This document shows positions 8,002 through 37,910 of a stretch of 64,000 bases of DNA, piece after piece. Numbering within the stretch: position 1 is the first letter of the stretch; every line of letters begins with the position of its first letter. Under the pieces are notes generated by a model. That model ran no database searches. It was not told the origin of the DNA and saw only the letters and a program-made list of their open reading frames with translations. Origin of the DNA: Litchfieldia sinesaloumensis (lineage in GTDB: Bacteria > Bacillota > Bacilli > Bacillales > Bacillaceae_L); contig NZ_LT732529.1 of assembly GCF_900156865.1 (NCBI RefSeq), forward strand, positions 2,215,805-2,279,804, written 5' to 3'. The position numbers and the translations under genes were made by a program.

Positions 8002-8035
8002 AAAAAAAAAGAACAAGACATTTGTCGTCTTGTTC
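8002..8035 (-). terminator. Terminator at the end of the pilus locus
   Basis: A perfect 9-bp stem, GAACAAGAC/GTCTTGTTC, is followed on the minus strand by nine T. It lies just downstream of the PRC-barrel gene and marks the end of the type IV pilus transcription unit. Confidence 0.92.
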
Positions 8036-8081
8036 CTAAAGGTTTTCGTCAAATACTTACAAATATTTAGTTTTGCTGGTT

Positions 8082-8897
8082 TTATTCAGCATTCATAGAT
8101 AATTCAACAAACACACTCGGACCTTGATCTTGCGCCTTCATAATATCATCCACTGATAGATGAGTTCCGGCTGGAATAATGACATTTCCATTGTTATCTA
8201 AAATATCTTTTTTGACAACTTTCCCATATAAGAGGTCGACTTGCTTTAAGCGCAGTGCTTTTGCTTCTGATTCTTCATGTTTATCAATTGAAGCATTGAT
8301 TGCATCAAATGGACTCTGTTCCTGCGTTGATGCTGGTAGAATCTCTTCAATGATTTCGTCATGGTCTGTATCTTGTGTAGATTCTTGTTGCTTTGGGTTC
8401 TCTAAATAGTCAACTGAATCGAGGAATTTAGTAGAAGCTTCCTCTTCAACAATGATAATATCTTTTCCATATGTAAGAACTGATTCAGAAGCTAACGCCA
8501 CTTCGCTGCCAGAGACATTTAATAAAGTACCTAGTAGGTTACCTGTTTCGTCGTCAACATAATACTCAAGAACTTCTCCTAATAGATGACCTTTACGAGT
8601 CATTACCTTTGAATTTGTAATCTTAATTTTTTTATTCACTAGGGAATTTGCAATCGGTATCTCATTTAAGTCAATAACAGAACTGTCACTTTCGATTGTA
8701 ACAGCGTATTCACCAATTCCCACTACTCGTTTGAATGGAATAGCTTTCACGCTAACTTGCCAGTCCTCATGCTCAATTGTAAGAAAGTCTACTGAGCCTT
8801 TTTCAGGGTTGATAACAAGTGATTTCACTTTTCCGATCTCGATACCATCTATAATACTTATTATCGGTAGCCCAACAATTTCAACACTTTTCTTCAT
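8082..8897 (-). CDS. PRC-barrel domain protein of the pilus locus
   Basis: The protein has two beta-rich PRC-barrel-like segments: one at the N-terminus (VGLPIISIIDGIEIGKVKSLVINPEKG, ending near residue 70) and one near 90-140 (SKVMTRKGHLLGEVLEYYVDDETGNLLG). A polar linker follows, then a third small beta segment (GKVVKKDILDNNGNVIIPAGTHLSVDDIMKA). No signal peptide or membrane helix is visible, so it is probably cytoplasmic. PRC barrels occur in RimM and other adaptor proteins, which suggests binding to another pilus component, but the function is unknown. A GTG four codons upstream is an alternative start; the ATG used here has GGTG 6 bases before it. It is the last gene before a strong terminator. 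Confidence 0.8.
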   Translation of the reverse strand: MKKSVEIVGLPIISIIDGIEIGKVKSLVINPEKGSVDFLTIEHEDWQVSVKAIPFKRVVGIGEYAVTIESDSSVIDLNEIPIANSLVNKKIKITNSKVMTRKGHLLGEVLEYYVDDETGNLLGTLLNVSGSEVALASESVLTYGKDIIIVEEEASTKFLDSVDYLENPKQQESTQDTDHDEIIEEILPASTQEQSPFDAINASIDKHEESEAKALRLKQVDLLYGKVVKKDILDNNGNVIIPAGTHLSVDDIMKAQDQGPSVFVELSMNAE

Positions 8898-8966
8898 AAC
8901 ATTCACCACACCTATCTATGTTTAAACGGGTTTTTATTCATTTTACCATGTCTTCGCTATTTTTCG

Positions 8967-10451
8967 TCATATTTTGCAATATTCTTTTAACAAAAATTTA
9001 ATTTCCTGTAAAATAACAGGATACTTTTCAAATCTGTCCATATTTTGAGATATAAGAGTTGATAATTCCTCGTATTGTTTAGTTTCTATATAATGATCAA
9101 TTAATAAACTCACAAACGTATAATAATCATGATCTGAAAGTTGAGGATGTAAATGCTCGATTATTACTTTTTCATATTCGGTTCTAGATAACTGTTTTCG
9201 ATAGAGCCTGATTTGTGAAACCATCGTATTAAAAAGTAATTGCTTCGTGACATCTGGCTCATCAAGATTAACTTGGTCTCTTTCTTCTAGCTCATTTTCA
9301 TCTATTATGTCTATACGATCACTATTAAATGTATCTTCATCCAGAGTGTCTGTTTCAAAACTTTCATTGGTTGATTCGTTCTCCGGCTGTGATTCGATAG
9401 AGTTTATTTCCTCTATTTCAATCTCATCGTTCCGAATAAGTTCAGGTTCATTCGTAGTTTCCTCTTCTTCGTCTAATTCATCTTCTTCAAAAACAGAAAT
9501 ATCGGAATCTAATGGATCTACTTCTTCTATTTCATCTACATTGGATAGTTCATTTTGAATTTCTTCTTCGATTGCGCTATCTAGATGTGTATTCAGGTTC
9601 AATTCTTCAGTCGAGTCTTCCACTATTGTTTCAGTACTGTCTTCATCAGATGACCCATTACCATCGTTACCTTTGTCTTCGTTATTTACTTGTAAACTAG
9701 CAAAATCGATATCATCATGTTCAGGCTCTATGTGGGAAATGTCTTCGATAACTGCTATCTCATCCAATTCGAATGGCCCATTATCCTGTTGTTGATCGAC
9801 ATCAGGTTCATTGATTACGTCGTCATTACTTTCATCATTCTTATTCTCTAATTCCATTTCTAATTCTTTTAACAAATCATCTATACTAGAATCCATACTT
9901 GTCTTTTCTTCTGGTTCATCCATGATTTCTTCATGAACCAGTTCATCATCAAGCGTATTATTGCCTTCAGAAAGTTCTTCCATTTCTATTGGTTCATCCA
10001 GAGTTTCATCGATAGGGTTCGTATCTACTTGATTTACTTCCACTATCTCTTCTGGTAAAGATGAAGAATCTTGTTGATTAGTTTCGACAATTGGTTGAGT
10101 ATCTTCTCCATGAATGACCTTACTACTACTGCGGATTTCTTTTTCTATGTCGTCTTCAAGTTCAAACTTAATCATTTTTTTCTCCGACTCTTGGTTGTCT
10201 TCGTTTTTCTCAAAGATCTGTCTTTCAAATCGAGTCGCCAATATATATGTAAACCCTATTGCTAGCAGTATTAACACAATCCCAGTTTGCCATACGCCCA
10301 TGATAGCTCTGGCAGCAAGGCCGATTATAAAGATAATAAATGCACTAACAAGAACAAGTAGTTTTCCCCTTTTTGTAAAACCAACTGGTAAAAAATAAAC
10401 GATAGGAAAAATTAATAGAAGCGATATAATTCCAAATATAAGATATTCCAA
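8967..10451 (-). CDS. Uncharacterised acidic membrane protein of the pilus locus
   Basis: I do not recognise this family. Three hydrophobic segments (about 2-22, 31-49, 53-72) are followed by a basic boundary (ATRFERQ). Then comes a region of about 320 residues extremely rich in Glu, Asp, Asn and Ser, probably disordered. A compact helical C-terminal domain (about 400-494: QLLFNTMVSQIRLYRKQLSRTEYEKVIIEHLHPQ... up to LLKEYCKI) ends the protein. It is placed between pilO and the PRC-barrel gene, on the same strand. By position it could be a membrane anchor or adaptor for the cytoplasmic side of the pilus machine. Part of the acidic region is low complexity, which makes homology searches difficult. 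Confidence 0.75.
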   Translation of the reverse strand: MEYLIFGIISLLLIFPIVYFLPVGFTKRGKLLVLVSAFIIFIIGLAARAIMGVWQTGIVLILLAIGFTYILATRFERQIFEKNEDNQESEKKMIKFELEDDIEKEIRSSSKVIHGEDTQPIVETNQQDSSSLPEEIVEVNQVDTNPIDETLDEPIEMEELSEGNNTLDDELVHEEIMDEPEEKTSMDSSIDDLLKELEMELENKNDESNDDVINEPDVDQQQDNGPFELDEIAVIEDISHIEPEHDDIDFASLQVNNEDKGNDGNGSSDEDSTETIVEDSTEELNLNTHLDSAIEEEIQNELSNVDEIEEVDPLDSDISVFEEDELDEEEETTNEPELIRNDEIEIEEINSIESQPENESTNESFETDTLDEDTFNSDRIDIIDENELEERDQVNLDEPDVTKQLLFNTMVSQIRLYRKQLSRTEYEKVIIEHLHPQLSDHDYYTFVSLLIDHYIETKQYEELSTLISQNMDRFEKYPVILQEIKFLLKEYCKI

Positions 10452-10581
10452 GCTGTTCTCACATCTTTCTATAATTTCTTAGTGATACAGTGATTTTTCA
10501 TATGTTGCATATCCCCCCGAAAACGCAACTCTTTGTTATTTTATACGAATATAATCATTTTATAAAATAACACTCATTAAA

Positions 10582-10602
10582 ACGAGACATGTCATGCCTC
10601 GT
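10582..10602 (-). terminator. Weak hairpin after pilO, possible attenuator
   Basis: An ACGAG..CTCGT palindrome followed on the minus strand by only three to four T lies between pilO and the acidic membrane protein gene. It may lower read-through into the last two genes. The short T tract makes full termination doubtful. Confidence 0.45.
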
Positions 10603-10616
10603 CATTATGAGATTTT

Positions 10617-11390
10617 TTATTCGTCGTCACTACTGTCTTCTTCTAAACCAGTAGCTAACGGATTCTTCTTATTGCCAGGTGTAGGAACCGTAAGTATTGG
10701 TGCCTCATCAGCCAATTCAGTGTACTTTGGTGCGTAAAAAGACGAGATTGTGACATTGTATACAAGTGGTGCAGGAACTTGATCGGCTGAAGTTAATTCC
10801 GATGTACCTGTAAAACTCAACGTATCTACTTTTGTAATTCTTGTTTGGTGTTCAACTACAGATAAAAACTTCTCTAATTCGCGGTAATTTGGTGATTCAA
10901 CACTTAAGGTTACCGTGATTACACCTAAACCCTCAACTAGTTCTGGATCAATCGTAGCCGTTTCCTCAGGTTGTTTTGTTTCATCTTGAGTATTCTCCTG
11001 GTCTGTGTCTACCGTATTTTCAGCATTTACGTCTTCTGTTATTTCTTCAGGGTTCGGTACAAATTGACTTTCACTATACGACATGTTGATGACTTTACTC
11101 TCTGATAACGTCTCAGCACGTTCTATATCTAAAATAAGCTGCTCTACTAAAGGAATGACTGGTATTTTCTTTTGTATTTCAGTTGAACTAACAACTGGTT
11201 CATCATTTTGTTGTCTCTCAGAAACTAGCTCTAACAGTCTTTGTTCGGTTTTAAGACTGTTTTCAAGCTGTGCGATTTTTTGATTGACCGGATTTACAAG
11301 CATGAAATATGCAAGATACGCTGCGCCAAATACGATTACAATTGAAAGGATTAAAATCGTCAATTGTTTACGTGAAAAATGGAGAGTCAT
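10617..11390 (-). CDS. pilO: Type IV pilus alignment protein PilO-like
   Basis: PilO forms the inner-membrane alignment subcomplex with PilN and PilM. A short cytoplasmic N-terminus, a membrane helix (about 10-32) and a coiled coil (IAQLENSLKTEQRLLELVSERQ) are followed by a ferredoxin-like domain ending GVITVTLSVESPNYRELEKFLSVVEHQTRITKVDTLSFTG, typical of PilO. An acidic insertion (about 118-150, VNAENTVDTDQENTQDETKQPEET) interrupts the middle. The order pilM-pilN-pilO with one-base gaps supports the call. The C-terminus is acidic (EEDSSDDE). Confidence 0.88.
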   Translation of the reverse strand: MTLHFSRKQLTILILSIVIVFGAAYLAYFMLVNPVNQKIAQLENSLKTEQRLLELVSERQQNDEPVVSSTEIQKKIPVIPLVEQLILDIERAETLSESKVINMSYSESQFVPNPEEITEDVNAENTVDTDQENTQDETKQPEETATIDPELVEGLGVITVTLSVESPNYRELEKFLSVVEHQTRITKVDTLSFTGTSELTSADQVPAPLVYNVTISSFYAPKYTELADEAPILTVPTPGNKKNPLATGLEEDSSDDE

Positions 11391-11391
11391 C

Positions 11392-12084
11392 TTAATTCCC
11401 CTCCTTTTGTAATGAATTAAACGCTTCTTTATTAATGGTTAATTCAAACTGTGCATAGTACCTCGGCAACACATTGTTATTCTCATTCGTTTCAATCGCG
11501 GTATTAGGTATTGGTGTATTGTTGTCTTCATTGTTCTCCGGATTTTGTTCATTATTGGTCTCATTGCCCTGTTCATCTGCATTTTCAACTACTGTATTCT
11601 CTTCTAAAGGAGTCGTAGAGATATTGAACAACCTAACCGATTCAAAGTTCGGTGATTCATTTAGTAATGCTAAATAGTGGGCAACCTCGGTATTCGTATC
11701 AAATTGGACTTGAAAACTTATGACACCGGTATCGGAATAAGAAAAAGATTGTACGAATCCTCTTTCAGGTAATAAGCCTGTTAGGTGATTTAAAATCGGA
11801 ACCGTTTCAACAAAATAAGAATCTGCCCATTCAGTTGTTTGCTCTAACTGCAGCAGACTACTTGAATTATTCGCCACTGTACTTTCAGCTTCCGCCGCTG
11901 CACGCGCAGCTTGTGTTGCCTTCAGTTGATTGTTAAGATTCTCTTCAACTGCATTCACTTTGTTTAGTTGCAGGAACACGAACAGGATGGCAGCTATTGC
12001 AACAATTGCAATAAGTACCCCTATTAGTAAATTAGCTCTATTTCTATATTCTTTTCTAGGAAGTAAATTAATATCTACTAGCAT
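11392..12084 (-). CDS. pilN: Type IV pilus assembly protein PilN-like
   Basis: The short cytoplasmic N-terminus has the signature DINLLP, which in other PilN proteins inserts into a groove of PilM. It is followed by a membrane helix (about 20-42), a coiled coil, and a ferredoxin-like domain (FVQSFSYSDTGVISFQVQFDTNTEVAHYLALLNESPNFESVRLFNIS). An Asn/Glu-rich low-complexity stretch (about 165-205) is inserted before the last beta strand. The gene starts directly after the pilM stop and ends one base before the pilO start, so the three are translated from one message. Same caution as for pilO: fold and context carry the call, not sequence identity. Confidence 0.88.
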   Translation of the reverse strand: MLVDINLLPRKEYRNRANLLIGVLIAIVAIAAILFVFLQLNKVNAVEENLNNQLKATQAARAAAEAESTVANNSSSLLQLEQTTEWADSYFVETVPILNHLTGLLPERGFVQSFSYSDTGVISFQVQFDTNTEVAHYLALLNESPNFESVRLFNISTTPLEENTVVENADEQGNETNNEQNPENNEDNNTPIPNTAIETNENNNVLPRYYAQFELTINKEAFNSLQKEGN

Positions 12085-13059
12085 TTATTGCACCTCTTTA
12101 AGAGCTAGTCCTAGTGGTAAATAATAATGGTCCGGAAGTTGTTCAAACTGAGTAATCGTATGTACTTGGATTTCATATCTTTGATTAAGTGTTGACGTAA
12201 TGTCAGTAAGATATGGATGATCTCCACTCATTAAGATAGTGGTAACCCTATCTTTCCCTTGTGTCATATTAAAACTATAAAAATTCATGACATGCTCAAT
12301 CTCTTTCATTAACTCATCCATTAGAACTTCTAGTTTACTACTGTGGCTATTCCACCTTATATCAGCTAATGTACTTGATTGATTTTGTTGAATATCCCAA
12401 TCATCAATTGAAGTCTCAAGTGTAATATGTCTCATAAACAACGGGATATCACGATGAAAAATACTGAAATTAACTGATTGCAAATCAAATTGGACGAGCA
12501 GAGAATGTTCTTCTGCCTTTGTTTGACCACAAAAATGAAATAGACGATACATACAAAGGGGTGTAATATCAGCTGCTACTGGTTTTAAGTCAACCTCTTC
12601 TAACAGAGCTGAATACTCATTTGCCACATCCTCGGGTGCAGCAAAGATAAGAATCTCTTTTCTTGTTTCATCCTCTGAGAGTTTCTTAAAGTCTAGCACC
12701 GGTTCTTCAAAAGGTAGATGGATGGTTGTACCCAGTTCCAGATAGATATAGCCGATAATTTCATCGTCCTTAACCTCTTTTGGTATTGTTATCTTACGGA
12801 TCACAACAAATGGGTCTGGTATCACAAATTGAACGTGGTTCTTTTTTATTCCCCATTCTGACACACATTCATCCAGGATAAGAAGCAATGTATCTCTTTC
12901 AATAATCCTACCTTCTTGAATGACGCCAGGTGGTAGATATTTCTCACGAAACTTTTGAACAGTAATAGGGTTTGTTTGTTTCACACCCACATATCGAATT
13001 GCATGATCTTTGATGATAATATTCGCCATTTTGTTTGATGTAAAAAGTGTAAAAGCCAT
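12085..13059 (-). CDS. pilM: Type IV pilus actin-like protein PilM
   Basis: PilM is a cytoplasmic actin-fold ATP-binding protein that binds the PilN N-terminus and couples motor ATPases to the alignment complex. The segments PVAADITPLCMYRLF, LLVQFDLQSVNFSIF and TILMSGDHPYLTDI fit the family (the last is the adenosine-binding region). Its 324 residues are near the usual 350. A GGGG site lies 7 bases before the ATG. The glycine-rich phosphate loops are less conserved than in Gram-negative PilM, so nucleotide binding is likely but unproven. Confidence 0.88.
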   Translation of the reverse strand: MAFTLFTSNKMANIIIKDHAIRYVGVKQTNPITVQKFREKYLPPGVIQEGRIIERDTLLLILDECVSEWGIKKNHVQFVIPDPFVVIRKITIPKEVKDDEIIGYIYLELGTTIHLPFEEPVLDFKKLSEDETRKEILIFAAPEDVANEYSALLEEVDLKPVAADITPLCMYRLFHFCGQTKAEEHSLLVQFDLQSVNFSIFHRDIPLFMRHITLETSIDDWDIQQNQSSTLADIRWNSHSSKLEVLMDELMKEIEHVMNFYSFNMTQGKDRVTTILMSGDHPYLTDITSTLNQRYEIQVHTITQFEQLPDHYYLPLGLALKEVQ

Positions 13060-13078
13060 TATGTATCCCCTTAATAAA

Positions 13079-13840
13079 TCAAAGTACTATGAAATCAATA
13101 TACCATGCAATAAAGTCATTCCCAAAAAAGTATGCAATCAAAGTCCCTATAACAATCGAGGGACCAAACGGCATTGGTTTACCTTTTTTCACTCTACCAA
13201 GTGCCATTCCAACTAAACCAATCATGGTACCGATGATGGTAGAAAAGAAAAATGAGAGTAGCGTAAGTTTCCAGCCTAACACTAGTCCAATTACAGCATA
13301 TAGCTTAATATCTCCTCCACCCATGCCACCTTTACTTACAACGGCAATAAAGTAGAGAAGGAGAAAGCCAACAACACTTCCAAGAAGCATGTCCCACCAC
13401 GGATCGAGTGGAATAAAAATACGTTCAATGATGAAGATAGGTGCAAAAAAGAGGAGCACCTTATCTGGAATTATCATGTATGTAATATCAGAAACAAAGA
13501 CAATCATCAGCAAAGAAATTAATGTCCAGGCGACAATCAATTCTTTTGACCATCCCACCAAAAGTGGTGAAATCGTAAAAAGAATTGCAGTTACAAGTTC
13601 AACAGATGCATAAATAGGTGAAATGCGCGTCTTACATTTGCGACACTTTCCACCTTGGAATATGTATGAAAAAACAGGGATTAATTCAATAGCCGTAAGA
13701 TGATGCTTACAAGTAGGGCATGCAGATCTTGGATGAACGATGGATTGCCCTGCTGGAATGCGTAGGCCGACAACGTTGTAGAAGGAGCCTAATATAAATC
13801 CAATAATACTTATAAAAAAAACAGCTATTATATATTCCAT
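13079..13840 (-). CDS. comC: Prepilin peptidase/N-methyltransferase (PilD/ComC)
   Basis: This polytopic aspartic peptidase cleaves the short leader from prepilins at the cytoplasmic face of the membrane and methylates the new N-terminus. The N-terminal zinc/methyltransferase domain has C41-x2-C44 and C66-x2-C69. The catalytic aspartates are D118 (VSDITYMIIPD) and D177 in the GGGDIK motif. About seven to eight membrane segments follow. In B. subtilis comC occupies the equivalent place between folC and spoIIB and serves the ComG pseudopilus; here it sits within a full pilus operon and probably serves both systems. All key residues are present. Confidence 0.95.
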   Translation of the reverse strand: MEYIIAVFFISIIGFILGSFYNVVGLRIPAGQSIVHPRSACPTCKHHLTAIELIPVFSYIFQGGKCRKCKTRISPIYASVELVTAILFTISPLLVGWSKELIVAWTLISLLMIVFVSDITYMIIPDKVLLFFAPIFIIERIFIPLDPWWDMLLGSVVGFLLLYFIAVVSKGGMGGGDIKLYAVIGLVLGWKLTLLSFFFSTIIGTMIGLVGMALGRVKKGKPMPFGPSIVIGTLIAYFFGNDFIAWYIDFIVL

Positions 13841-13857
13841 CTACTCTACACCTTCAT

Positions 13858-13902
13858 AAAACAATATTGATAATCCAATAAGATTTAGGATTATCAATAT
13901 TG
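13858..13902 (-). terminator. Strong terminator after the major pilin gene
   Basis: A perfect 15-bp inverted repeat (13862-13876 with 13888-13902) is followed on the minus strand by TTTT and lies 11 bases after the pilin stop. It would separate abundant pilin mRNA from the pilD-pilM-pilN-pilO genes, a common design for major pilin genes. Confidence 0.88.
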
Positions 13903-13913
13903 AGTATTATTTA

Positions 13914-14357
13914 TTAGTTTAATACAACATCATCACGATCTAATTCCGAAGCGGTAAGTGCTGGTACATATACTACTGGTTTCTCATCAACAGATTTTAG
14001 AGTCACAGTGTAATCAGATGGGCTCTCTGCAGAAACATCCACGAGGCTCGCAGCCCCATCATATAATCCTGCTTTACCTGGAGATTTTGGCATTTCTTCT
14101 AGAAAACCTGCACTAACTAATTCTGTCATTGTATAATTTGTATCTTCATTTCCGATTTTTGCATTTTGAGCTTTTGCTAACTTAGCCGCATTTATCATTT
14201 GCTGAGCATTTGCAATATGCGCATCTTTTTTTGTATTATCAATCAATGAACCAATACTTGGCACAGCAATCGCCGCTATAATCCCTAAAATTACAATTAC
14301 CGCTAGTAGTTCAATTAACGTCAAGCCTTTTTGATTTTTCAGATGTTTTTTAAGCAT
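13914..14357 (-). CDS. pilA: Major type IV pilin
   Basis: The prepilin has a 10-residue basic leader (MLKKHLKNQK), cleavage after G11, and the class III signature GLTLIELLAVIVILGIIAAIAVP. Glutamate 5 of the mature chain (E16) is present. The mature pilin is about 136 residues, with an N-terminal helix of about 55 residues and a small beta-rich head. There are no cysteines, so the head is not disulphide-stapled, in contrast to many Gram-negative pilins. An AAAGGAGAGG site precedes the ATG. A stand-alone promoter region and a strong terminator around the gene suggest high expression, so it is taken as the major pilin. Confidence 0.92.
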   Translation of the reverse strand: MLKKHLKNQKGLTLIELLAVIVILGIIAAIAVPSIGSLIDNTKKDAHIANAQQMINAAKLAKAQNAKIGNEDTNYTMTELVSAGFLEEMPKSPGKAGLYDGAASLVDVSAESPSDYTVTLKSVDEKPVVYVPALTASELDRDDVVLN

Positions 14358-14404
14358 TTTTATTCCCTCTCCTTTTTTACAGAACTAGTCCATTTATACT
14401 ATTT

Positions 14405-14434
14405 ATTATAATGGCTATCCATGTAGAATACACT
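14405..14434 (-). promoter_or_regulatory. Candidate promoter of the pilin gene
   Basis: A perfect TATAAT (14405-14410, minus strand) lies about 48 bases before the pilin ATG in a 144-base gap after pilC. The -35 region (GTGTAT at a 17-base spacing) is poor, so an activator or another sigma factor may be needed. Confidence 0.42.
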
Positions 14435-14501
14435 ACTTATTTGTTGGAAACAGGGTAATTTTGATTACTTCATGTCATTTTTTGTCACAACAAGCATTTC
14501 C

Positions 14502-15707
14502 CTATTGAATTTGATTGAAAATATCGAACATTGGTACTAGAATCGCTGTGACTATAGTCCCGACTATTCCACTTAAGAAGACAATCATTAGTGGTTCAAT
14601 TAGTGACTTCAACTGGTCAGTTGTATTCTCTACATCATCTTCATAGAAATTCGCCACTTTACCAAGCATTTCATCTAGTGAACCGGTACCTTCACCAATT
14701 GCAATCATATGTGTAATTAATGGTGGAAACACCCAGTGCTTTTTCATCGGTTCAGTCATAGACTGTCCCTGTTCGAGTGATTTTCTTGATTGCTTAACAA
14801 CCCCTGCTATTACTTCATTCTCTACAATTGTTTCAACAACCGCTAACGCCTGTAGAATCGGTACAGAACTAGCTAACATGGAGCTTAAGGTTCTTGTCAT
14901 CCGAGCAAGAGCTGCTTTTTGTAATAGTGTTCCGAAAATCGGCATTTTTAATAAGACATAATCAAGATAATATCTTGTTTCTTTTCTCCGCTTAATCAGA
15001 GTGAAACCTAATAAAATGAAAATAAATAGGAGAACAATTAACCACCAAAATTGTTGCATAAACTCACTGGCATTTAAAACAAACCGGGTGATTGCTGGTA
15101 GTTCCGCTCCAAAATCGGCAAACATATCTACAAAGGTAGGAACTACCGAAACTAATAAAAAGATAACAACTGCTATCGCAACGATTCCAATCACTGCGGG
15201 ATATGCCATTGCTGACTTTACTTTTTGTCTCGTTTTATTTTGTTTTTCATAGTAATCCGCAAGATTTTCAAGGGTATCATCAAGATTACCCCCAACCTCA
15301 CCAACACGAACCATATTTGTAAACAAGGTTGTGAAGATTCGCTTATGCTTTGATGTAGCTGCTGACAGGGATATCCCCTCTCGTAAATCTTCTTCTACCT
15401 CTAATAAAGCATGTTTTAGTGGCTTACTACTTGTTTGATTCGCCAAAATATTCATCGTATCAACAATCGTGACTCCAGCCTTAATCAGGGTTGCAAATTG
15501 CCTTAAAAAGATAACAAAATCCTTATGCTTTACAGGACTTCCAATTGCAATTTCCTTTGTTAAAAGCGTCTCTGGAATTTCATTGATAACTGTTACTCGT
15601 ATCCCTTTTTGCCGGAGATTTGCAACCGCATCCGTTTTTGACGTTCCAGAAATTGTACCGGACTTTTTACCAAATTTATCTCGACCCTCATACTTAAATC
15701 TAGGCAT
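14502..15707 (-). CDS. pilC: Type IV pilus inner-membrane platform protein PilC
   Basis: PilC (GspF/T2SSF family) is the membrane platform that the PilB and PilT motors rotate or pull on to add or remove pilin subunits. Two repeated cytoplasmic helical domains (about 65-190 and 270-390) each start with FLRQFATLIKAGVTIVDT- or MTRTLSSMLASSVPILQALAV-like segments and contain the VGEVGG/IGEGTG motif pair. Three membrane helices are visible. The N-terminus (MPRFKYEGRDKFGKKSGTISG) is typical. The start overlaps the end of pilT by eight bases. Confidence 0.95.
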   Translation of the reverse strand: MPRFKYEGRDKFGKKSGTISGTSKTDAVANLRQKGIRVTVINEIPETLLTKEIAIGSPVKHKDFVIFLRQFATLIKAGVTIVDTMNILANQTSSKPLKHALLEVEEDLREGISLSAATSKHKRIFTTLFTNMVRVGEVGGNLDDTLENLADYYEKQNKTRQKVKSAMAYPAVIGIVAIAVVIFLLVSVVPTFVDMFADFGAELPAITRFVLNASEFMQQFWWLIVLLFIFILLGFTLIKRRKETRYYLDYVLLKMPIFGTLLQKAALARMTRTLSSMLASSVPILQALAVVETIVENEVIAGVVKQSRKSLEQGQSMTEPMKKHWVFPPLITHMIAIGEGTGSLDEMLGKVANFYEDDVENTTDQLKSLIEPLMIVFLSGIVGTIVTAILVPMFDIFNQIQ

Positions 15708-16746
15708 TATTAGTCAACTCCTGTAGGAATGGAGCTGCAATATCCTTTGAGATTGTCCCGGAGCGGACTAGCTCTAAAAGATGACTCTCCAGTGTATGCA
15801 TACCATCTACACGACTAGTCTGCATCACATTTTTGATTTGATGAGTTTTCTCATTTCGAATCAAGTTGGCTACAGCCGCATTGTTAACTAGGATTTCAGT
15901 TGCAGCTTTTCTCCCCTTCTTATTCACAGTTGGAAACAATCGCTGTGAAATGACACTTACGAGTACATTTGCAAGTTGAATTCTAATTTGCGGTTGCTGT
16001 GAAGATGGAAAAACATCGATGATCCGATCAACCGTTGATGGGGCACTAACGGTATGCAATGTACCTAGTACAAGATGGCCTGTTTCCGCTGCCGTAATTG
16101 CCGTTTGGATTGTTTCCAAGTCTCTCATTTCCCCAACAAGAATCACGTCAGGGTCTTGCCTAAGTGCAGCACGAAGGCCATTCGCAAAATTTAATGTGTC
16201 ACTTCCGATTTCTCGCTGTTCAATGATACTCGCACCATGCCTATGCAAATATTCAATCGGGTCTTCTAGGGTCACAACATGCTTGCTCATTGTCTGATTA
16301 ATAAACTGAATCATTGCGGCAAGTGTTGTCGACTTCCCGCTCCCGGTTGGACCTGTAACAAGAACTAATCCCTGTGGCCTCTGACAAATTTTCTTTAATA
16401 CTTGTGGTAGCCCGAGGTCCTCAATTGTAGGAATATCAGTGGGTATCACTCGAAATGCAATCGCCAATGTTGTTCTTTGTTTATAGACGTTAACCCGAAA
16501 GCGAGACACCCCTTCGATACCGTATGAAAAATCAAGTTCTCCTTTTTCTTTGAATTGCAGCCACATATCTTCTGGCATAATTGCTTTAGCTATAGACTCA
16601 ATCATTGCTGGTTTTATGATGTCTTTTCCGTATCTCTTTAAATCACCATTAATACGAAAGATTGGTGGGACACCAGCTGTAATATGAATATCAGAAGCTT
16701 TCAGTTCATGTGCTGAATGTAATATTTGGTCTATAATATCTTTCAT
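15700..16746 (-). CDS. pilT: Type IV pilus retraction ATPase PilT
   Basis: PilT is a hexameric AAA-type secretion ATPase that depolymerises the pilus and powers twitching and DNA uptake. Walker A GPTGSGKSTT is at 132-141, the Asp box (VTLEDPIEYLH) and Walker B (RQDPDVILVGEMRD) follow, and the His box is HLVLGTLHT. The N-terminal PAS-like part begins with ASDIHITAGVPP. A C-terminal ANLIRNEKTHQI segment corresponds to the AIRNLIRE retraction motif. At 348 residues it is a true PilT, not a second PilB. The B. subtilis competence operon has only ComGA and no PilT, so this gene is notable. Confidence 0.95.
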   Translation of the reverse strand: MKDIIDQILHSAHELKASDIHITAGVPPIFRINGDLKRYGKDIIKPAMIESIAKAIMPEDMWLQFKEKGELDFSYGIEGVSRFRVNVYKQRTTLAIAFRVIPTDIPTIEDLGLPQVLKKICQRPQGLVLVTGPTGSGKSTTLAAMIQFINQTMSKHVVTLEDPIEYLHRHGASIIEQREIGSDTLNFANGLRAALRQDPDVILVGEMRDLETIQTAITAAETGHLVLGTLHTVSAPSTVDRIIDVFPSSQQPQIRIQLANVLVSVISQRLFPTVNKKGRKAATEILVNNAAVANLIRNEKTHQIKNVMQTSRVDGMHTLESHLLELVRSGTISKDIAAPFLQELTNNA

Positions 16747-16757
16747 TTTTTCTCCAC

Positions 16758-18410
16758 CTATTCAGCAATAGTAACTCGTAGGATTTCCTCTGTTGTTGTA
16801 ATCCCCTGTTTCACTTTCAATAGCCCATCATCAATTAAAAAGATGGTCCCATTTTTTATTGCTACCTCACGTAGACTTGAATATGATTCTCGGTTCATAA
16901 TCATTCGTCTCATTTCATTATCTAGAACGAGCAACTCATGTATCGCAACTCTGCCTTTGTAACCAGTCATGTTACATGTTCCACAACCTTGCCCTCGATT
17001 GACCTTGCTTATGGTAATTCCACGTTTACCAAAAATTTCTTTCTCGCGTACTGTTGGTTCCTGTAATTGACCACAATCTCGGCATACACGACGAACCAAA
17101 CGCTGTGCTACCACGCCTGATAACGAGGAAGCAACCAGAAACGGTTCAACTCCCATATCAATGAGCCGAGTAATGGTCCCAAGTGAATCATTAGTGTGAA
17201 GAGTACTCAATACCAGATGTCCTGTTAAGGATGCTCTAACCGCCACATCAGCTGTCTCTCGGTCACGAATTTCACCGACCATGATAATATTGGGGTCTTG
17301 TCGTAATATGGCCCTTAGGCCCTTAGCAAATGTCATACCGACATTCGTATTAACTTGGATTTGATTGATACCTTCAAGTTGATACTCGACAGGGTCTTCA
17401 ACGGTAATGATATTTACATCCTCTGAATTCAAATGGTTCAACGCGGCATAAAGTGTTGACGACTTTCCTGAACCAGTAGGACCCGTAATTAACACAATAC
17501 CGGTAGGCTGTTGTATCAATTTTTTAAACCGTTCGAAATTCACTTTATTAAAGCCTAGTTGTTTCAAATTATTTAACGAGCTACTTAAATCTAAAACCCG
17601 CATGACAATTTTTTCACCATATAGAGTTGGAAGAGTAGAAACACGCAAATCGATATGATGGGCTTCTAAACTTACTTTTATCCGCCCATCCTGTGGGATA
17701 CGACTTTCCGTAATATCTAGGTTCGCCATAATTTTAATACGTGCTGTTAACACGCTTTGCATACTACGTGGTAAGGTTCTTTCGGTTCTCAACACACCGT
17801 CTACCCGATATCGAAGAATTACCTTTGTTTCATGCGGATCTATATGAATATCACTTGCACGCTGTTGAACAGCATTTTGTAGGATTTGATTAACTAACTT
17901 AACGACAGGTGCATCTTCATTTGTTATTTTTTCTTCCTGTATCTCGGGTGTCTCATCAAGAAACTCTTGTACTCCATCATCTAAATCATAAAACTTATTA
18001 ATGGCGCGTAAAATTTCATCCTTAGAGGCAATCGCTGGTTCAATTTGAAAACCAGTTCTGAGCCTTAAATCTTCAATTGCATAAAAGTCCATTGGGTCCG
18101 CCATCGCCACATAGAGCCTGTCCCCTTCTTTTCGAAGGGCAATTAATTGATATCTCCTAGCCATTTCTCTTGGAATCAAAGAGGTTAAAGACGCATCAAT
18201 TGGATATCGGAATAGACTAACATGCGGAATTCCTAACTGGAATTCGAGTACCTCAATTAATTGTTGCTCTGTTATAAAACCACGTTGGAGAAGAACGTCA
18301 CCAAGTTTTTGTGATTCATTTTTATCCTTTAGTGCTTGTTGTAATTGCTCTTCTGAAATCAACCCCGATTGAACTAATAGATCCCCTAATCGTTTTCGAG
18401 TATTACGCAT
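16758..18410 (-). CDS. pilB: Type IV pilus extension ATPase PilB
   Basis: PilB is a hexameric ATPase that drives pilin polymerisation. An N-terminal MshEN-type domain (RLGDLLVQSGLISEEQLQQALK, then KLGDVLLQRGFITEQQL, about 5-150) can bind cyclic-di-GMP in related ATPases. Walker A is GPTGSGKSST, Walker B IIMVGEIRD, and a four-cysteine zinc site (CRDCG...CGTC) lies near the C-terminus. An upstream in-frame start would add 40 residues overlapping the preceding gene; the ATG used here has GGAGGGG 6 bases before it, giving 550 residues, normal for PilB. The two-part MshEN module raises the possibility of c-di-GMP control. Confidence 0.94.
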   Translation of the reverse strand: MRNTRKRLGDLLVQSGLISEEQLQQALKDKNESQKLGDVLLQRGFITEQQLIEVLEFQLGIPHVSLFRYPIDASLTSLIPREMARRYQLIALRKEGDRLYVAMADPMDFYAIEDLRLRTGFQIEPAIASKDEILRAINKFYDLDDGVQEFLDETPEIQEEKITNEDAPVVKLVNQILQNAVQQRASDIHIDPHETKVILRYRVDGVLRTERTLPRSMQSVLTARIKIMANLDITESRIPQDGRIKVSLEAHHIDLRVSTLPTLYGEKIVMRVLDLSSSLNNLKQLGFNKVNFERFKKLIQQPTGIVLITGPTGSGKSSTLYAALNHLNSEDVNIITVEDPVEYQLEGINQIQVNTNVGMTFAKGLRAILRQDPNIIMVGEIRDRETADVAVRASLTGHLVLSTLHTNDSLGTITRLIDMGVEPFLVASSLSGVVAQRLVRRVCRDCGQLQEPTVREKEIFGKRGITISKVNRGQGCGTCNMTGYKGRVAIHELLVLDNEMRRMIMNRESYSSLREVAIKNGTIFLIDDGLLKVKQGITTTEEILRVTIAE

Positions 18411-18423
18411 GGATTTCCCCTCC

Positions 18424-19740
18424 CTACGACTTTTGCATTGGTTCAGGATTTTCCCAAAGGTCGGTGTCTGAGTTATCTTTACGATTCTCTTCCTTTGTGT
18501 CTCCCTGTGGATTACTCTCTTGATTCTCACCTTCTGGGCTTGGATTCGGAATAGGATTCATGGGGTTTTGCTCCGGACCTACAGGATTTTGAGTCTCCTC
18601 TTCTGGAACTAGAATACTATGCACTTCAATTACAGGTTTTGGTGGGTAATAGTCTTGTGCTAGTAAGATTTTTTGGTCTAACTGCCCTTTCTCTTTAACA
18701 ATACGGTAGATTTTCCCTACCTTGCCTTGTAATCCTTTTTGTTTATTTACAACTTGCCCCCTTTTAAGGGTACTATCATATTGTTTAATAATCTTTGGTT
18801 CAAAAGATTCTTCATCTCTAATTGAGATACTCACAGTTTGCTGCATTTCTGCACCATTCAACTGAACTTCAAAGCCTTTTTCTGTTAATGAAAATACAAG
18901 GTTGTAGTCATATGGATTTTTATTAAAGATAATAAGGTCTTTCTTTTCCTTTTCAATTAACGCTTCATTTCCAAAGGTTGCATAAGCAGGCAACTCATTA
19001 CTTATATGTCGCTCTACTATGTCAAAATTAGTAGGTAAAACACTTGAATAAATACTAGTAGCTATTACGCTTAATGTTTCATTTGAATATTTATTTAATA
19101 CATCAATTTCTTCTAGATACGTGAGTAAGGAAAAAGGGGTATTAGCTGGTAAAGTTACAATTCCTAATTCTTTCACCCATTTAAGTAGTTCGCTCTCATC
19201 TCTCACGTTAGTTATGAGTGCCTGTGAGATAACATTTCGTTCATCAACTTTTACATATTGTGAAAGGTTGAATGCCACTTCACCTGGGTGCAAGGTTTCT
19301 GCAGGTTGTAACAAGTCATGTTTTAGTTCTTCGATTTTAATTTCTTCTTGATGGTTTGTTTCTTTTATAAGATGGTTATATTGTTCATCTTGAATAGTAA
19401 CTAGTAATGGATTTTGTTTTTTATTAATAGCTGCATCTACACTTTTGGGAATATCAAATTGATAAACATTACGCTTTTCTAGTGGATAAAGGTCATCCTC
19501 CACTACAATTGAAACCTGGCCTAGCCCATACCAAGCTTCAATCTCAGCTGATAATATGGTTTTTGCATCTTCCTTGGTCAGTCCTGAAATATCTACCGGA
19601 CCGATCAATGTTCCTTCACCAAAAGAATCCTCAGCAAAAAAGGCTTGATACGTTTTCGCCCCAGCAGTTGAAAAAAGCGATATCATTAACACGCTAATTA
19701 AAAGTAGACTAAATAGTTTGGCCATATTTGCCTTTTGCAT
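18424..19740 (-). CDS. VanW/G5-like secreted cell-wall protein of the pilus locus
   Basis: An N-terminal signal or anchor helix (about 7-27) precedes a peptidoglycan-binding-4-like segment (PVDISGLTKEDAKTILSAEIEAWYG). A VanW-like region (about 180-300, with LPANTPFSLLTYL in place of the usual G-x-FSF) and a G5-like beta domain (IKQYDSTLKRGQVVNKQKGLQGKVGKIYRIVKEKG, about 335-385) follow. The tail is rich in Pro, Glu and Asn. These domains occur in YoaR/YabE-type wall proteins. It is the gene directly before pilB, so I infer it may help the pilus through or onto the wall. GGGGGA before the ATG supports this start over a GTG eight codons upstream. The VanW motif is weak. Confidence 0.72.
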   Translation of the reverse strand: MQKANMAKLFSLLLISVLMISLFSTAGAKTYQAFFAEDSFGEGTLIGPVDISGLTKEDAKTILSAEIEAWYGLGQVSIVVEDDLYPLEKRNVYQFDIPKSVDAAINKKQNPLLVTIQDEQYNHLIKETNHQEEIKIEELKHDLLQPAETLHPGEVAFNLSQYVKVDERNVISQALITNVRDESELLKWVKELGIVTLPANTPFSLLTYLEEIDVLNKYSNETLSVIATSIYSSVLPTNFDIVERHISNELPAYATFGNEALIEKEKKDLIIFNKNPYDYNLVFSLTEKGFEVQLNGAEMQQTVSISIRDEESFEPKIIKQYDSTLKRGQVVNKQKGLQGKVGKIYRIVKEKGQLDQKILLAQDYYPPKPVIEVHSILVPEEETQNPVGPEQNPMNPIPNPSPEGENQESNPQGDTKEENRKDNSDTDLWENPEPMQKS

Positions 19741-19967
19741 GTTTGTCCCCCTTTCTAAACACACACTTGAAACATCTATTTATCACCACTATGTGTAGTG
19801 TCTCCGATTCAATCACATGATTTTCCACAACAGGTCCAAAATCACATAGTAAATTATTCCTATACAATTCAACTTTCATTTTATATGAAAATAGGAAAAT
19901 ACTAAAGAAGGAATAATGGATATTTTGTAGCATTTTAAAAAATATTGTCGCATCCTAGGTACTTTTT

Positions 19968-20001
19968 AGAAAAATAAAAAAAATAGAGGCTCATGCCTCT
20001 A
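19968..20001 (-). terminator. Terminator after the minor-prepilin genes
   Basis: A TAGAGGC/GCCTCTA hairpin is followed on the minus strand by an AT-rich tract with several T runs, five bases after the stop of the large prepilin gene. It splits the pilus locus into a minor-prepilin unit and the pilB-starting unit. Confidence 0.7.
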
Positions 20002-20005
20002 TAAG

Positions 20006-21655
20006 TTACTCATATCTTGAATCGACAATTTCAAAAGAAATTTTATCTACAGTTGGAATCCCGCTAGGAGGATCCTTAATGATGTTTTTGTTAAAAATTA
20101 CGGAAAGTCTAGAACTTGTCGGTGGTAAAGAAGTTTGAGCTCTTTGGAAATAATACACACCTACTCTGTCATACTGTATATTCGGGTTATAATCAGGGTC
20201 CCTTAAGGTTGGAATAGATTGTTTTGAGCTACCTTTTACAGCATTCAAGATTATTTCGTTGCCAAACAAGCCACCATGAATTTTAATATTTGAACCAACA
20301 CCATATATCTCTAAGAGCGCATTGGAATAGAGAAATGCATTAATTACCTTAGGAGTATTGGTCCATTCACTGTTATTAGAAAGTGTAATTGAACCTTGGG
20401 ACATTATCACAAGAGTGCCTGCTGCATTTGATAAGTTTTGGACATTAGCTCCTAGTTTTGTATAAATCGTACCATTCGTGTTTATATCGTTTCTTGATAC
20501 TAAATTACCACTTGTATACATAATTCCTTCTAGAGTGAAGCTATTTCCTGGAGCATTGTTACAATCATTTGAACTATACCCGCAATTGAGACTCGTATTG
20601 CCTTTTATATAAATGTATCGGTCGTCAGTTCTAGAAGCGTTTTCCAACTTCAAACTACCACTTAGACTAGCTGAACCATTTACATAAATATCGCCGTCTA
20701 CAACTTGTAAAATAGCATTAGGTCTAACAATCAAATTACCGTTTACATATAAGTCCCCGACATATCTTCTGGTACCAGAACTAATTTCTAAATTATTTCT
20801 TATATAATTTGCCTTTGTGTTATTCCGATTAGCTTCGCTCGCAGTGGAATCCACAATTTGATCTACATTAAAGTAATATTCATTTACATTTAAGTCACGG
20901 TTAATCACTGAGGGTGTAATTGAAAAATACCTATTTAAGTTTGTACCATTAGGTGTAAATGTTGACCAATCGGAATTATCCCAACACCAAAATAAGATAC
21001 AGGATTCCCTTCTTTCCCAGTACTTATAATCCTTCTTTACTGTTAGTTCTCCGTCTATTGCAGCATAAGAGGTTGGAACATAGTAGGTTGTTCCGCTCGA
21101 ATATTTTCCTTCATTACGTGATTGTATACTATCCCCTACATATATTTCTCCTTTTAAATAAGGTGAACCGTTAAGTGTTAAATTACTTGGGGTTACGATT
21201 GTATACTTGAATACATCCGCAACAGTTGATAGTACTATTTTCCTCGTATACTTCTTGTTACCGCTATTCACATCACTTGTTATATCTATTTCGTACTGAA
21301 TCGCACGTGTTGCGTTTTGACCATTCTTAATTACTTTATACGTTAGATCAAAATTAGGTTCGTTCTTTAAGCGATTCAACATTGAATTGAGACTTGACAC
21401 GATTGTGGTTGCATCTACGTTATGATTTTCAATATTATAATTTAAATTTTCCAACTCATACTCTAGGATAGCAGTACCTTCTGTTACGGCATTCTCTGCT
21501 TCGACTCGATACTCCACATTTCTTTCTGAAACTGATATGTTCTCCCGGGATTGAATAACCAACCCAATTAGTAATGTCCCGACTACTATTAGAAGGGTAA
21601 ACACTAATAAAACTGTCAATAAAGCATAACCCCTATTGTTTTTTATCACTTTCAT
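20006..21655 (-). CDS. Large prepilin-like protein with beta-repeat region (PilX-like)
   Basis: A basic leader is followed by NRGYALLTVLLVFTLLIVVGTLLIGLV, a prepilin-type helix in which RG|YALLTV places the cleavage site after the Gly and lacks Glu5, as in PilX-type minor pilins. The remaining 500 residues are beta-rich. From about 310 to 480, short glycine-bounded strands (YVGDLYVNGNLIVRPN, VVDGDIYVNGSASLSGSLKLEN, IYIKGNTSLNCG) resemble a beta-solenoid. Two cysteine pairs lie in aromatic or Asn-rich loops. At 549 residues it is far larger than normal minor pilins, so a tip adhesin is plausible. It starts one base after the preceding prepilin gene and has a GGAGGG site. Confidence 0.75.
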   Translation of the reverse strand: MKVIKNNRGYALLTVLLVFTLLIVVGTLLIGLVIQSRENISVSERNVEYRVEAENAVTEGTAILEYELENLNYNIENHNVDATTIVSSLNSMLNRLKNEPNFDLTYKVIKNGQNATRAIQYEIDITSDVNSGNKKYTRKIVLSTVADVFKYTIVTPSNLTLNGSPYLKGEIYVGDSIQSRNEGKYSSGTTYYVPTSYAAIDGELTVKKDYKYWERRESCILFWCWDNSDWSTFTPNGTNLNRYFSITPSVINRDLNVNEYYFNVDQIVDSTASEANRNNTKANYIRNNLEISSGTRRYVGDLYVNGNLIVRPNAILQVVDGDIYVNGSASLSGSLKLENASRTDDRYIYIKGNTSLNCGYSSNDCNNAPGNSFTLEGIMYTSGNLVSRNDINTNGTIYTKLGANVQNLSNAAGTLVIMSQGSITLSNNSEWTNTPKVINAFLYSNALLEIYGVGSNIKIHGGLFGNEIILNAVKGSSKQSIPTLRDPDYNPNIQYDRVGVYYFQRAQTSLPPTSSRLSVIFNKNIIKDPPSGIPTVDKISFEIVDSRYE

Positions 21656-22132
21656 TTATTCACCCTCCAAAGGATAGATAAGGTTCACTTTTTTTGAATT
21701 GGATACATTATCCTTATCTACTATTTCAAACGAAAAGTATAGAGAGTTATTTTTTTCGGTAGCATTTGGGTTTGTTATTTTTACTCGTGGTGAGTTTATT
21801 ATCTCTGTATCAATAGACAGAGCATTATTTTTAACGCTCACACCGTACTCGTTATTGACATTTATAATACGGTTAAAATCGATAATCTTAAAGCTAATAT
21901 TTCCAGGTTCAGAGGTTTCAATTTCTTCAACGACATTTGCATTTTCAAATATAGTATTTAAACGTTCTGTAATGATAATCGTTTCATTTCTTATATTTGT
22001 ATCCACTTGTGTCTTATTACTCGACTTTAACATCGTTGTTGTAAACCCATATACAGAAGATAAAATGATGGTTGCAATGGCGAGTGCTGCCAACAATTCG
22101 ATAAGAGTAATTCCCTTTTGATTTAATTTCAT
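21656..22132 (-). CDS. Minor prepilin, PilW/ComGF-like
   Basis: A typical prepilin N-terminus, NQKGITLIELLAALAIATIILSSVYGF, has Glu5 of the mature chain. The remainder (158 residues in total) is a beta-rich head with no cysteines. It overlaps the preceding prepilin gene by four bases and abuts the next. Minor prepilins of this kind usually prime pilus assembly as a tip complex. The assignment to PilW rather than to PilV or ComG types cannot be made from the sequence alone. Confidence 0.8.
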   Translation of the reverse strand: MKLNQKGITLIELLAALAIATIILSSVYGFTTTMLKSSNKTQVDTNIRNETIIITERLNTIFENANVVEEIETSEPGNISFKIIDFNRIINVNNEYGVSVKNNALSIDTEIINSPRVKITNPNATEKNNSLYFSFEIVDKDNVSNSKKVNLIYPLEGE

Positions 22133-22545
22133 CTCGAATACCCTTCCAATACAGTTTCATTTTTAATCCCACTGGTATTTGATTGTACAACTACCTCAAT
22201 TACGACTACGTCTGTCTTAATTCGAGGGTCGGGATGTTCTCTGAATGCAACGAAAGCCTTTCGCCCCTGATAATATGACTGTTGATCAGACTCAACCTGT
22301 AATTCATCTATGATGTTAATTTCAGTTCGAGGATTTCCAATTCTTAAAAAGAGTTCACTACTATCTTTTGTTTGATATACAGAAAGAATATCTCTTGCGA
22401 TTTGTATATCTGAAAACTTTTCATCTGATACTCTCGAAAATTTTGAGCCCTGTACAAAGAAATTTGCCGTAACTAGAATAATGATGGAGAGAATGACTAT
22501 GCTTGCCAAAATTTCAATCAACGTTAAGCCCTCTTGACTTTTCAT
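22129..22545 (-). CDS. Minor prepilin, PilV/ComGD-like
   Basis: The N-terminus is SQEGLTLIEILASIVILSIIILVTANFF, a class III signal with Glu5. The protein is 138 residues from the chosen ATG. Three in-frame ATGs exist within eight codons. Only the third has a good ribosome site (GGAGG with a 6-base gap), so the first ATG used by an automatic caller is probably wrong. It is the first gene of the minor-prepilin unit and is preceded by a good sigma-A-like promoter. Confidence 0.82.
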   Translation of the reverse strand: MKSQEGLTLIEILASIVILSIIILVTANFFVQGSKFSRVSDEKFSDIQIARDILSVYQTKDSSELFLRIGNPRTEINIIDELQVESDQQSYYQGRKAFVAFREHPDPRIKTDVVVIEVVVQSNTSGIKNETVLEGYSR

Positions 22546-22586
22546 TCTCATCCTCCGTTCTAGCATTTTTTTAGTTCTTTAGCACC

Positions 22587-31472: not shown

Positions 31473-32462
31473 TTAGTTCTTTTCTCGCAACCAGCGCGCC
31501 ACATCTTTTGAATGATACGTAATAATCAAATCAGCACCTGCACGCTTCATTCCAGTTAGCATTTCCATAACAATGTCTTTCTCGTTTATCCAGCCATTTT
31601 GTGCTGCAGCTTTAATCATCGAATATTCGCCACTTACATTATAGGCAACCACTGGTGCGTTAAAATTATTTTTAACATCGCGCACGATATCTAAATAAGA
31701 CAATGCTGGCTTTACAATTATGAAATCAGCGCCCTCTTCAATATCAGATTCCGCCTCACGTAAAGCCTCTAAGCGATTGCCATAATCCATTTGGTAGGTT
31801 TTACGGTCACCAAAGGATGGCGCACTCCCCGCTGCATCACGGAATGGACCATAGAATGCAGATGAATATTTAACCGCGTATGACATAATTGGGATATTTT
31901 CAAAACCAGCCTCATCTAAGCCATGGCGAATCGCTGTCACAAAACCGTCCATCATGTTGGATGGCGCGATAATATCTGCGCCGGCTTGCGCTTGACTTAC
32001 AGCTGTCTTGGCTAATAGCTCAAGAGATGGATCATTAAGGATTTGACCGTTCTCAATTACACCACAATGGCCATGGGACGTATATTCACACAGGCATGTA
32101 TCAGCGATAACAACCAATTCTGGATGTTTTTCTTTTGTTAACCGAGTTGCTTTTTGGACGATTCCATGATCATGAAAAGCACCTGTACCTGTTTCATCTT
32201 TTTCATGCTCATGTGGTACACCGAATAAGATAACTGATTTAATTCCTAACGCAACGACCTCATCAAGCTCTTGCTCTAGTAAATCTAATGAAATATTATA
32301 CACACCAGGCATCGAAGAAACTTCTACTTTTTTATTCTCGCCTTCTACAATAAACAATGGGTAGATTAAATCTTCTGTATGTAAATGCGTTTCACGAACC
32401 ATCGCTCGAATGTTTGCGGTATGACGTAATCTTCTATGTCTTGCAAATTGTAATTTTTCCAT
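31473..32462 (-). CDS. hemB: Porphobilinogen synthase (delta-aminolevulinic acid dehydratase)
   Basis: HemB condenses two 5-aminolevulinates to porphobilinogen. The active-site lysines lie in [25 protein letters not shown] and [14 protein letters not shown]. The zinc region appears as [15 protein letters not shown], with three cysteines. The C-terminal segment is typical. Its 329 residues are normal. A GGAGGAG ribosome site precedes the ATG, and hemD ends three bases upstream. Confidence 0.97.
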
Positions 32463-32465
32463 CTA

Positions 32466-34198: not shown

Positions 34199-34222
34199 CG
34201 TGTACCTCCTGTTAATGTAGGC

Positions 34223-35056: not shown

Positions 35057-35071
35057 TTCAATTTCTCCTCA

Positions 35072-36424: not shown

Positions 36425-36480
36425 TATTTCTCACCCCAACCTTTTTTAATCGATGGCACTTTTCGTCCACAAACTAATAC

Positions 36481-36510
36481 TATTATACCATGTCTAATGA
36501 TAGCGATTTT
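36481..36510 (-). promoter_or_regulatory. Candidate promoter of the hem operon
   Basis: A perfect TATAAT (36481-36486, minus strand) lies about 57 bases before hemA. The -35 region is poor. The surrounding bases resemble a PerR box only weakly (several mismatches), so PerR control is not claimed. Confidence 0.45.
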
Positions 36511-36557
36511 CGAAAAAAGTGTGAACAGTTTTCAACAAACCTATGCTAAGATAATAA

Positions 36558-37266: not shown

Positions 37267-37283
37267 ATTATACCAAAATATTG

Positions 37284-37901: not shown

Positions 37902-37910
37902 ATTTTCTCC

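Follow-up and report, generated by a model that had tools for sequence, protein, structure and literature searches.

In Bacillus subtilis, the model species of Gram-positive competence, comC is regarded as a competence gene standing on its own, and a locus in Litchfieldia sinesaloumensis raises the question of where such a gene comes from. Within a 64,000-nucleotide stretch of this genome (hereafter the window), a type IVa pilus locus of the monoderm kind occupies positions 8082–22566 on the minus strand, flanked by folC on one side and by spoIIB–maf–radC–mreB on the other. B. subtilis has comC at this same folC–spoIIB place and a separate comG operon. An earlier note on this DNA had described a near-complete pilus gene set between folC and spoIIB; the genes it named are all present on the minus strand, but it had missed those for a VanW/G5-like, an acidic and a PRC-barrel protein. 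The comparisons presented below make it likely that the window holds the ancestral type IVa pilus locus of the Bacilli, and that comC is its prepilin peptidase gene, pilD, kept for comG after the pilus was lost.

The core of the locus is readily assigned, as the Pfam matches of PilB, PilT, PilC, the peptidase, PilM, PilN and three prepilins all exceed the curated cut-offs. PilB combines a T2SSE domain (461.5 bits) with an MshEN domain (89.5 bits), PilT carries T2SSE at 183.3 bits and passes the NCBIfam PilT/PilU model TIGR01420 (scores in Table 1), and the peptidase matches A24_N (108.3 bits) and A24 (74.3 bits), with its two catalytic aspartates present. A class III leader, seen as an N_methyl match above the cut-off, is found in the major pilin and two minor prepilins. 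Several NCBIfam scores stay below their cut-offs: PilB lies just below that of the PilB equivalog (634.7 against 675.65), PilM just short of its own (103.4 against 133), and PilC below those of the PilC/GspF equivalogs. The PilO-like protein and SpoIIB match no Pfam or NCBIfam family and are named from their place and their conservation elsewhere. The proteins are not those of a ComG system, as PilB reaches 273.8 bits on the ComGA model (cut-off 300) and PilC 147.3 bits on the ComGB model (cut-off 240). PilB also comes near GspE (619.6, cut-off 630.25) and PilC near GspF (389.8, cut-off 424), as would be expected if the machine built a short secretion pseudopilus, or were silent, rather than forming a retractable pilus. 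This is quite unlikely: PilT scores above its cut-off within the operon and recurs in two thirds of the related genomes described below, PilM and PilN are present, and the genome-wide secretin-family search gave no match, which bears out the earlier statement that no secretin (PilQ) is present and departs from the secretin-bearing, PilT-free composition of type II secretion.

The window peptidase is the sole A24_N match in the genome. A separate comG operon, which the earlier note had left to be looked for, lies about 185 kb from the pil locus, and its ComGA (347.9 bits, cut-off 300), ComGB (323.3, cut-off 240) and ComGC (115.4, cut-off 75) all exceed their cut-offs, so that one peptidase probably serves both the pil and the comG filaments in L. 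sinesaloumensis. The double MshEN pattern is found in 133 of 163 PilBs and the ComGA scan gave no MshEN domain; therefore the pilus is probably under cyclic di-GMP (c-di-GMP) control and the Com filament is not.

The locus is real but less unusual than the earlier note implied. In a sample of 299 genomes of the same order, PilT (called at an E-value of 1e-60 or better) is found in 202 genomes and in 91 of 113 genera. The peptidase is present in 295 genomes, as a single copy in 291, and is kept in 94 of the 97 PilT-negative genomes; only one of the four genomes without it (G053, G175, G179 and G201) carries PilT, namely G201. A ComGB-family match occurs in all 299 genomes and exceeds the cut-off in 270, and the weaker matches may be PilC, because the window PilC itself scores 147 bits on the ComGB model. 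In plasmid records, all 5000 PilT matches counted were below 60% identity. PilM_2 was dropped as a locus marker, since it matches 295 of the 299 genomes, partly through other proteins; its matches far from pil loci belong in several genomes to proteins of about 730–760 residues (for example G086:C11:139311-140429 and G051:C1:3808888-3810000), for which an FtsA-like identity is a guess.

Gene order was compared in 140 peptidase regions (90 from the order and 50 from the rest of the class), hand-picked from the listed matches and in some cases located through PilM matches; a locus was called complete when it held five or six of PilB, PilT, PilC, PilM, PilN and PilO. The 91 loci of the order, window included, comprise 74 complete, 13 lone and 4 partial loci, and the 50 others 29, 16 and 5, respectively; what was scored as a neighbour in L134 and L137 is a stray match resembling FolC or MreB. 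At least one of folC, valS, spoIIB, maf, radC and mreB lies in the region of 60 of the 74 complete order loci. The folC–spoIIB interval, singled out earlier for a survey, holds pil loci beside spoIIB, maf, radC or folC in many families of the order, and such loci are present in other families of the class as well. Nine of the order's families (f3, f22, f28, f29, f30, f35, f39, f40 and f43) contain lone as well as complete loci; within f43, genus g46 lacks PilT in seven of seven genomes and g64 carries it in three of three. A second scan, run over named genomes with an alignment of 35 peptidases as the query, gave 55 complete, 17 lone and 8 partial loci under a stricter length rule among the best 80 of 509 relatives, the partial class including one cut by a contig end (L156), one from a metagenome assembly with broken frames (L200) and one lacking PilT only (L211). 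Within these 80, both complete and lone records were found in Mesobacillus, Virgibacillus, Oceanobacillus, Lysinibacillus and records named only 'Bacillus'. The closest among the matches listed is Fredinandcohnia onubensis, with a peptidase 80% identical in the same locus.

Half-decayed loci give direct support to the earlier note's proposal that a lone peptidase gene is what remains after loss. When separate stop-to-stop pieces were compared with the locus profiles, an intact peptidase was found beside a PilC tail, a PilM head and a two-piece PilO (L059); a two-piece PilM, most of PilN, a PilO tail and a pilin (L048); the head of the acidic protein and a PilO tail (L056); and a cut PilC with neither PilB nor PilT (L088). 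PilB, PilT and PilC are gone from L148 and L151, which keep the VanW-like gene, PilM, PilN and PilO. Among named species, an intact peptidase accompanies a PilC piece in Cytobacillus horneckiae (L165), a PilO tail in Neobacillus massiliamazoniensis (L175), a half-decayed locus in Parageobacillus caldoxylosilyticus (L159), and another, with PilT whole, in Oceanobacillus rekensis (L219). The two catalytic aspartates are retained by 47 of 49 lone, 22 of 23 partial and all 153 complete peptidases; the three that deviate (L104, L113 and L141) lie outside the order, and in L072 and L092 the peptidase was not found within the fetched region.

The direction of change is indicated by outgroups and by the tree of the neighbouring genes. 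In a phylum-wide sample, 83 of 101 genomes carry PilT, 80 of them outside the Bacilli, and the distance from peptidase to PilT was measured in 30 hand-picked genomes of these 80: it is at most 5 kb in 23 and 7–9 kb in 4, with the peptidase on another contig in 3. Since 27 of the 30 have the two genes no more than 10 kb apart, the place of the peptidase inside a pil locus is older than the Bacilli. RadC shares a contig with PilT in 8 of these genomes, always at least 80 kb away, and lies on another contig in the remaining 22, where nearness across contig ends could escape notice; the location beside radC seems to be a feature of the Bacilli. Two loci of class family f56, outside the order (L114 and L115), have a lone peptidase between folC and radC, so this place may predate the order. 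On a midpoint-rooted FastTree tree of five neighbouring proteins from 151 loci (113 complete, 30 lone and 8 partial, the last counted as present), the distribution requires 22 steps when any change is allowed, 23 with losses only and 40 with gains only, whereas 200 shuffles of the labels gave at least 24. The distances of the pil core follow those of the neighbouring genes (Spearman 0.75 over 113 loci, permutation maximum 0.26), and over all quartets the agreement is just 0.58, against 0.34 with random labels. Among clear quartets (89 loci), the agreement with MreB+RadC is 80% for PilB+PilC and 74% for PilM+PilT, as compared with 74% for Maf. The PilT tree separates 99 Bacilli sequences, joined by 1 from elsewhere in the phylum, from 26 such non-Bacilli sequences, joined by 3 Bacilli; the support for this split is 84, which did not earn a star, and nothing in the tree has the look of the recent foreign origin that would have told against the earlier proposal. 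The claim that the window carries the ancestral form is thus supported both by the embedded peptidase outside the Bacilli and by the count of 23 losses against 40 gains.

For the lone comC of Bacillus itself, two Bacillus-like genomes of genus g46 (L085 and L087) stand in for B. subtilis; their Maf proteins are nearest to that of B. subtilis (261 and 304 bits, respectively), as compared with 208 bits for the Maf of L086, a pil-bearing member of the same family. The lone ComC of L087 sits in the same folC–spoIIB interval and is 47–52% identical to the PilDs of pil loci, one of them from a pil-bearing genome in the family of L087, and no pilB, pilT, pilC or pilM/N/O gene was found beside comC in the Bacillus-like genomes examined. 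In the peptidase tree, lone and complete members pair with support in families f29, f30, f39 and f40, and the lone label requires 13 changes as compared with 16.0 in shuffles, a value as low being reached in 8 of 500. As the sole evidence for remnant status, this tree was rejected as too weak.

A number of observations weigh against pilus loss as the whole history. The peptidase tree leaves Bacillus ComC on a long branch with no supported placement, and the order does not form one clade in it, although a single clade is not rejected (approximately unbiased test, p 0.098). Support for the relation of comC to the peptidase proposed in the earlier note comes from the interval and the identity, and not from the tree placement. 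This long branch, together with an identity to the window peptidase of just 34% for L085 and 47% for L087, is what would be seen if B. subtilis ComC were a peptidase of other origin that replaced PilD, the shared position reflecting coincidence or replacement. Such an origin is very unlikely, given the shared interval, the supported lone/complete pairs in four families, the single peptidase in 291 of the 295 peptidase-bearing genomes, and the fact that Bacillus-like ComC finds its best matches among PilDs of the order (51.7% for the one from the family's pil-bearing member). The remnant scan gave no debris in most lone loci, including those of L085 and L087; the fetched loci are a non-random sample; and PilT-negative does not equal pilus-less, as L013 and L150 hold PilB and PilC without PilT. 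Fourteen of the 74 complete order loci lack the usual neighbours in the fetched region, and therefore the locus can move. Clear quartets agree poorly with Maf (59% for PilB+PilC and 64% for PilM+PilT) and PilD agrees with PilB+PilC on 69% of them, so some exchange is likely; moreover, the neighbouring genes could travel with the locus and would then not be fully independent of it.

These last points, the displaced loci and the poor agreement with Maf, also speak for a history in which a lone comC beside folC was the ancestral state of the Bacilli, with pil operons repeatedly acquired around it through recombination of the conserved flanks or through mobile elements. A Paenibacillus pil operon has been described as a mobile-element insertion (PMC9765702), and the 22 steps with any change are hardly below the 23 with losses only, so some gains are possible. 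Repeated gain is nonetheless unlikely as the general account, as it requires 40 steps, leaves the fragments on both sides of the peptidase in half-decayed loci and the embedded peptidase of 27 of the 30 outgroup genomes to be explained, and sits poorly with a pil core that tracks MreB+RadC as well as Maf does. The evolutionary inference of the earlier note, an ancestral pilus locus reduced to comC, is probably right.

Under pilus loss with retention of pilD, PilD would cleave the prepilins of the pilus, PilB, with its c-di-GMP-type MshEN domain, would power extension via PilC and the PilM/N/O stator, and PilT, as judged from its presence alone, would power retraction; the same PilD would also process the prepilins of the separate comG filament. 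On the sampled tree, some 23 such losses would have occurred; after each, the remaining pil genes would decay and pilD would be retained because the comG filament still needs it, to be named comC thereafter. We infer that B. subtilis itself followed this route and, from the gene content of the window, that L. sinesaloumensis may make the pilus, retract it and twitch. If it is indeed the pilD of a retractable pilus that survives as comC, then B. subtilis represents the reduced case, the absence of linkage between comC and comG is accounted for, and many separate losses become available for asking what the pilus does. PilT occurs in about two thirds of the genomes sampled from the order, usually, where examined, with a whole and hardly studied pilus locus, and pil-bearing Bacillales offer harmless, cultivable hosts for testing the monoderm type IVa pilus.

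The genes of the locus and its flanks are listed in Table 1. The start of pilB is most likely at 18410, because the longer frame overlaps the preceding gene. Terminator-like sites on the minus strand start at 22675, 20002, 8037 and 6811 (22 such sites were found, as compared with 9.1 in shuffles), and together with a folded gap after the pilO-like gene they suggest about three predicted transcription units, in line with the three or four proposed earlier; promoter-like sites showed no enrichment (47 against 58.4 in shuffles).

Table 1. Features of the pilus locus and its flanks, in window positions
Feature	Position	Strand	Basis or remark
folC, upstream flank	22699..24027	-	Mur ligase domains, Pfam
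Minor prepilin 1	22129..22566	-	N_methyl 26.2 bits, above cut-off
Minor prepilin 2	21656..22132	-	N_methyl 30.0 bits, above cut-off
PilX/GspK-like prepilin, 549 aa	20006..21655	-	Start adjoins end of minor prepilin 2
VanW/G5-like protein gene	18424..19764	-	13 bases before pilB
pilB, extension ATPase with MshEN (c-di-GMP-type) domain	16758..18410	-	Start is an internal ATG
pilT, retraction ATPase	15700..16746	-	TIGR01420 487.5 bits, cut-off 319.1
pilC, platform protein	14502..15707	-	T2SSF 221.3 bits
Major pilin gene	13914..14357	-	N_methyl 34.7 bits; 'major' by place and conservation
pilD/comC, prepilin peptidase	13079..13840	-	A24_N and A24; aspartates 118 and 177
pilM	12085..13059	-	PilM_2 64.6 bits
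pilN	11392..12084	-	PilN 29.7 bits
pilO-like gene	10617..11390	-	Follows pilN; recurs in other loci
Folded gap, possible terminator region	10460..10616	-	After pilO-like gene; z -5.49 against shuffles, three hairpins
Acidic protein	8967..10451	-	No family match; recurrent in pil loci
PRC-barrel protein	8082..8909	-	PRC 37.1 bits, above cut-off 21.2
Terminator-like site, locus end	8009..8037	-	
spoIIB, downstream flank, then maf, radC, mreB	6850..7944	-	Place and conservation; maf by Pfam

The VanW/G5-like protein scores 25.2 bits on VanW (below the cut-off of 27) and 25.2 bits on G5 (above the cut-off of 23), its profile matches solved G5 domains, and by eye its sequence appears to be that of an exported protein with a wall-type G5 domain. 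Its gene is found in 122 of 155 complete and in none of 49 lone loci, and lies directly upstream of pilB in 112 of the 155. One tentative and rather doubtful idea, based on this distribution, is that it is an unrecognised, monoderm-specific component of the pilus machine guiding the pilus through the thick peptidoglycan, a role that the secretin has in diderms. In L101, L102, L228 (Cohnella) and L231 (Paenibacillus), a divergent gene encoding about 1535–1684 residues adjoins pilB in its place. The acidic and PRC-barrel proteins occur in 55 and 29, respectively, of the 103 complete loci of the first set (74 from the order and 29 from the rest of the class). The 549-residue prepilin has no N_methyl match, no Pfam family above the cut-off and no solved relative; its N-terminus, judged by eye, resembles GspK/PilX without the usual glutamate, and phmmer finds it kept beside prepilins in 39 other loci. 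This PilX/GspK-like prepilin is a candidate tip subunit.

Further observations concern individual loci. In G125 (contig C25, about 31800–48700), from the genus of the window, two PilM and two PilT matches share a strand at a spacing of about 12–13 kb, which probably marks a second pil locus in tandem. The peptidase lies downstream rather than upstream of pilM/N/O in L075, L081, L097, L195, L205 and others. L183, titled Pseudomonas sp. ISL-84, is probably misnamed, because its order valS–folC–pilD–spoIIB–maf–radC–mreB is that of Bacillales. In L059 (16081–19290) and L061 (14672–17504), radC is split at the same point, after residue 178, by an insert of about 2–2.5 kb with an open frame. A ComK-box test upstream of pilD/comC was too weak to use (mean mismatches 4.63 in lone loci against 5.48 in shuffles and 5.20 in complete loci against 5.27; at most two mismatches in 3 of 30 lone and 1 of 113 complete loci).

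Among known systems, B. subtilis resembles the window in having a homologous peptidase at the same place, and a separate comG operon. The window locus belongs to a known kind, as pil operons of four Bacillales have been published: the accessible portion of Imam 2011 (PMC3244431) describes pil and one com operon each in two Geobacillus, Bacillus sp. NRRL B-14911 and Exiguobacterium sibiricum, reports pilT in several Gram-positive pil operons and proposes retraction, and notes that every species has a pilD/comC homologue, in some cases outside that operon; unlike the present analysis, that portion contains no chromosomal position, loss history or remnant claim. In the open-access literature searched, no prior statement was found of comC as the surviving pilD of a repeatedly lost pilus. 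Denise 2019 (PMC6668835) set the peptidase aside, its tree being poorly supported and peptidases exchangeable, and the main text of the review of monoderm pili by Pelicic 2019 (PMC6916266) has no word beginning with 'bacill'. According to PMC9765702, Paenibacillus thiaminolyticus, like the window, has pilB with MshEN, pilT, pilC, a pilin, pilD, pilM and pilN in a cluster, which is read there, unlike the window locus, as a mobile-element insertion; the truncated pilB of its reference strain would also fit a deletion. Streptococcus sanguinis (PMC6916266 and PMC10790768) likewise has a PilB/PilT/PilC-type core, PilM/N/O, no secretin and a separate Com filament. Its ComC cleaves the pilins of the Com filament, and Mom 2023 terms the comC gene a distant loner (PMC10790768). 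In S. sanguinis, pil and com each have their own peptidase, whereas the window has one peptidase, encoded inside the pil locus.

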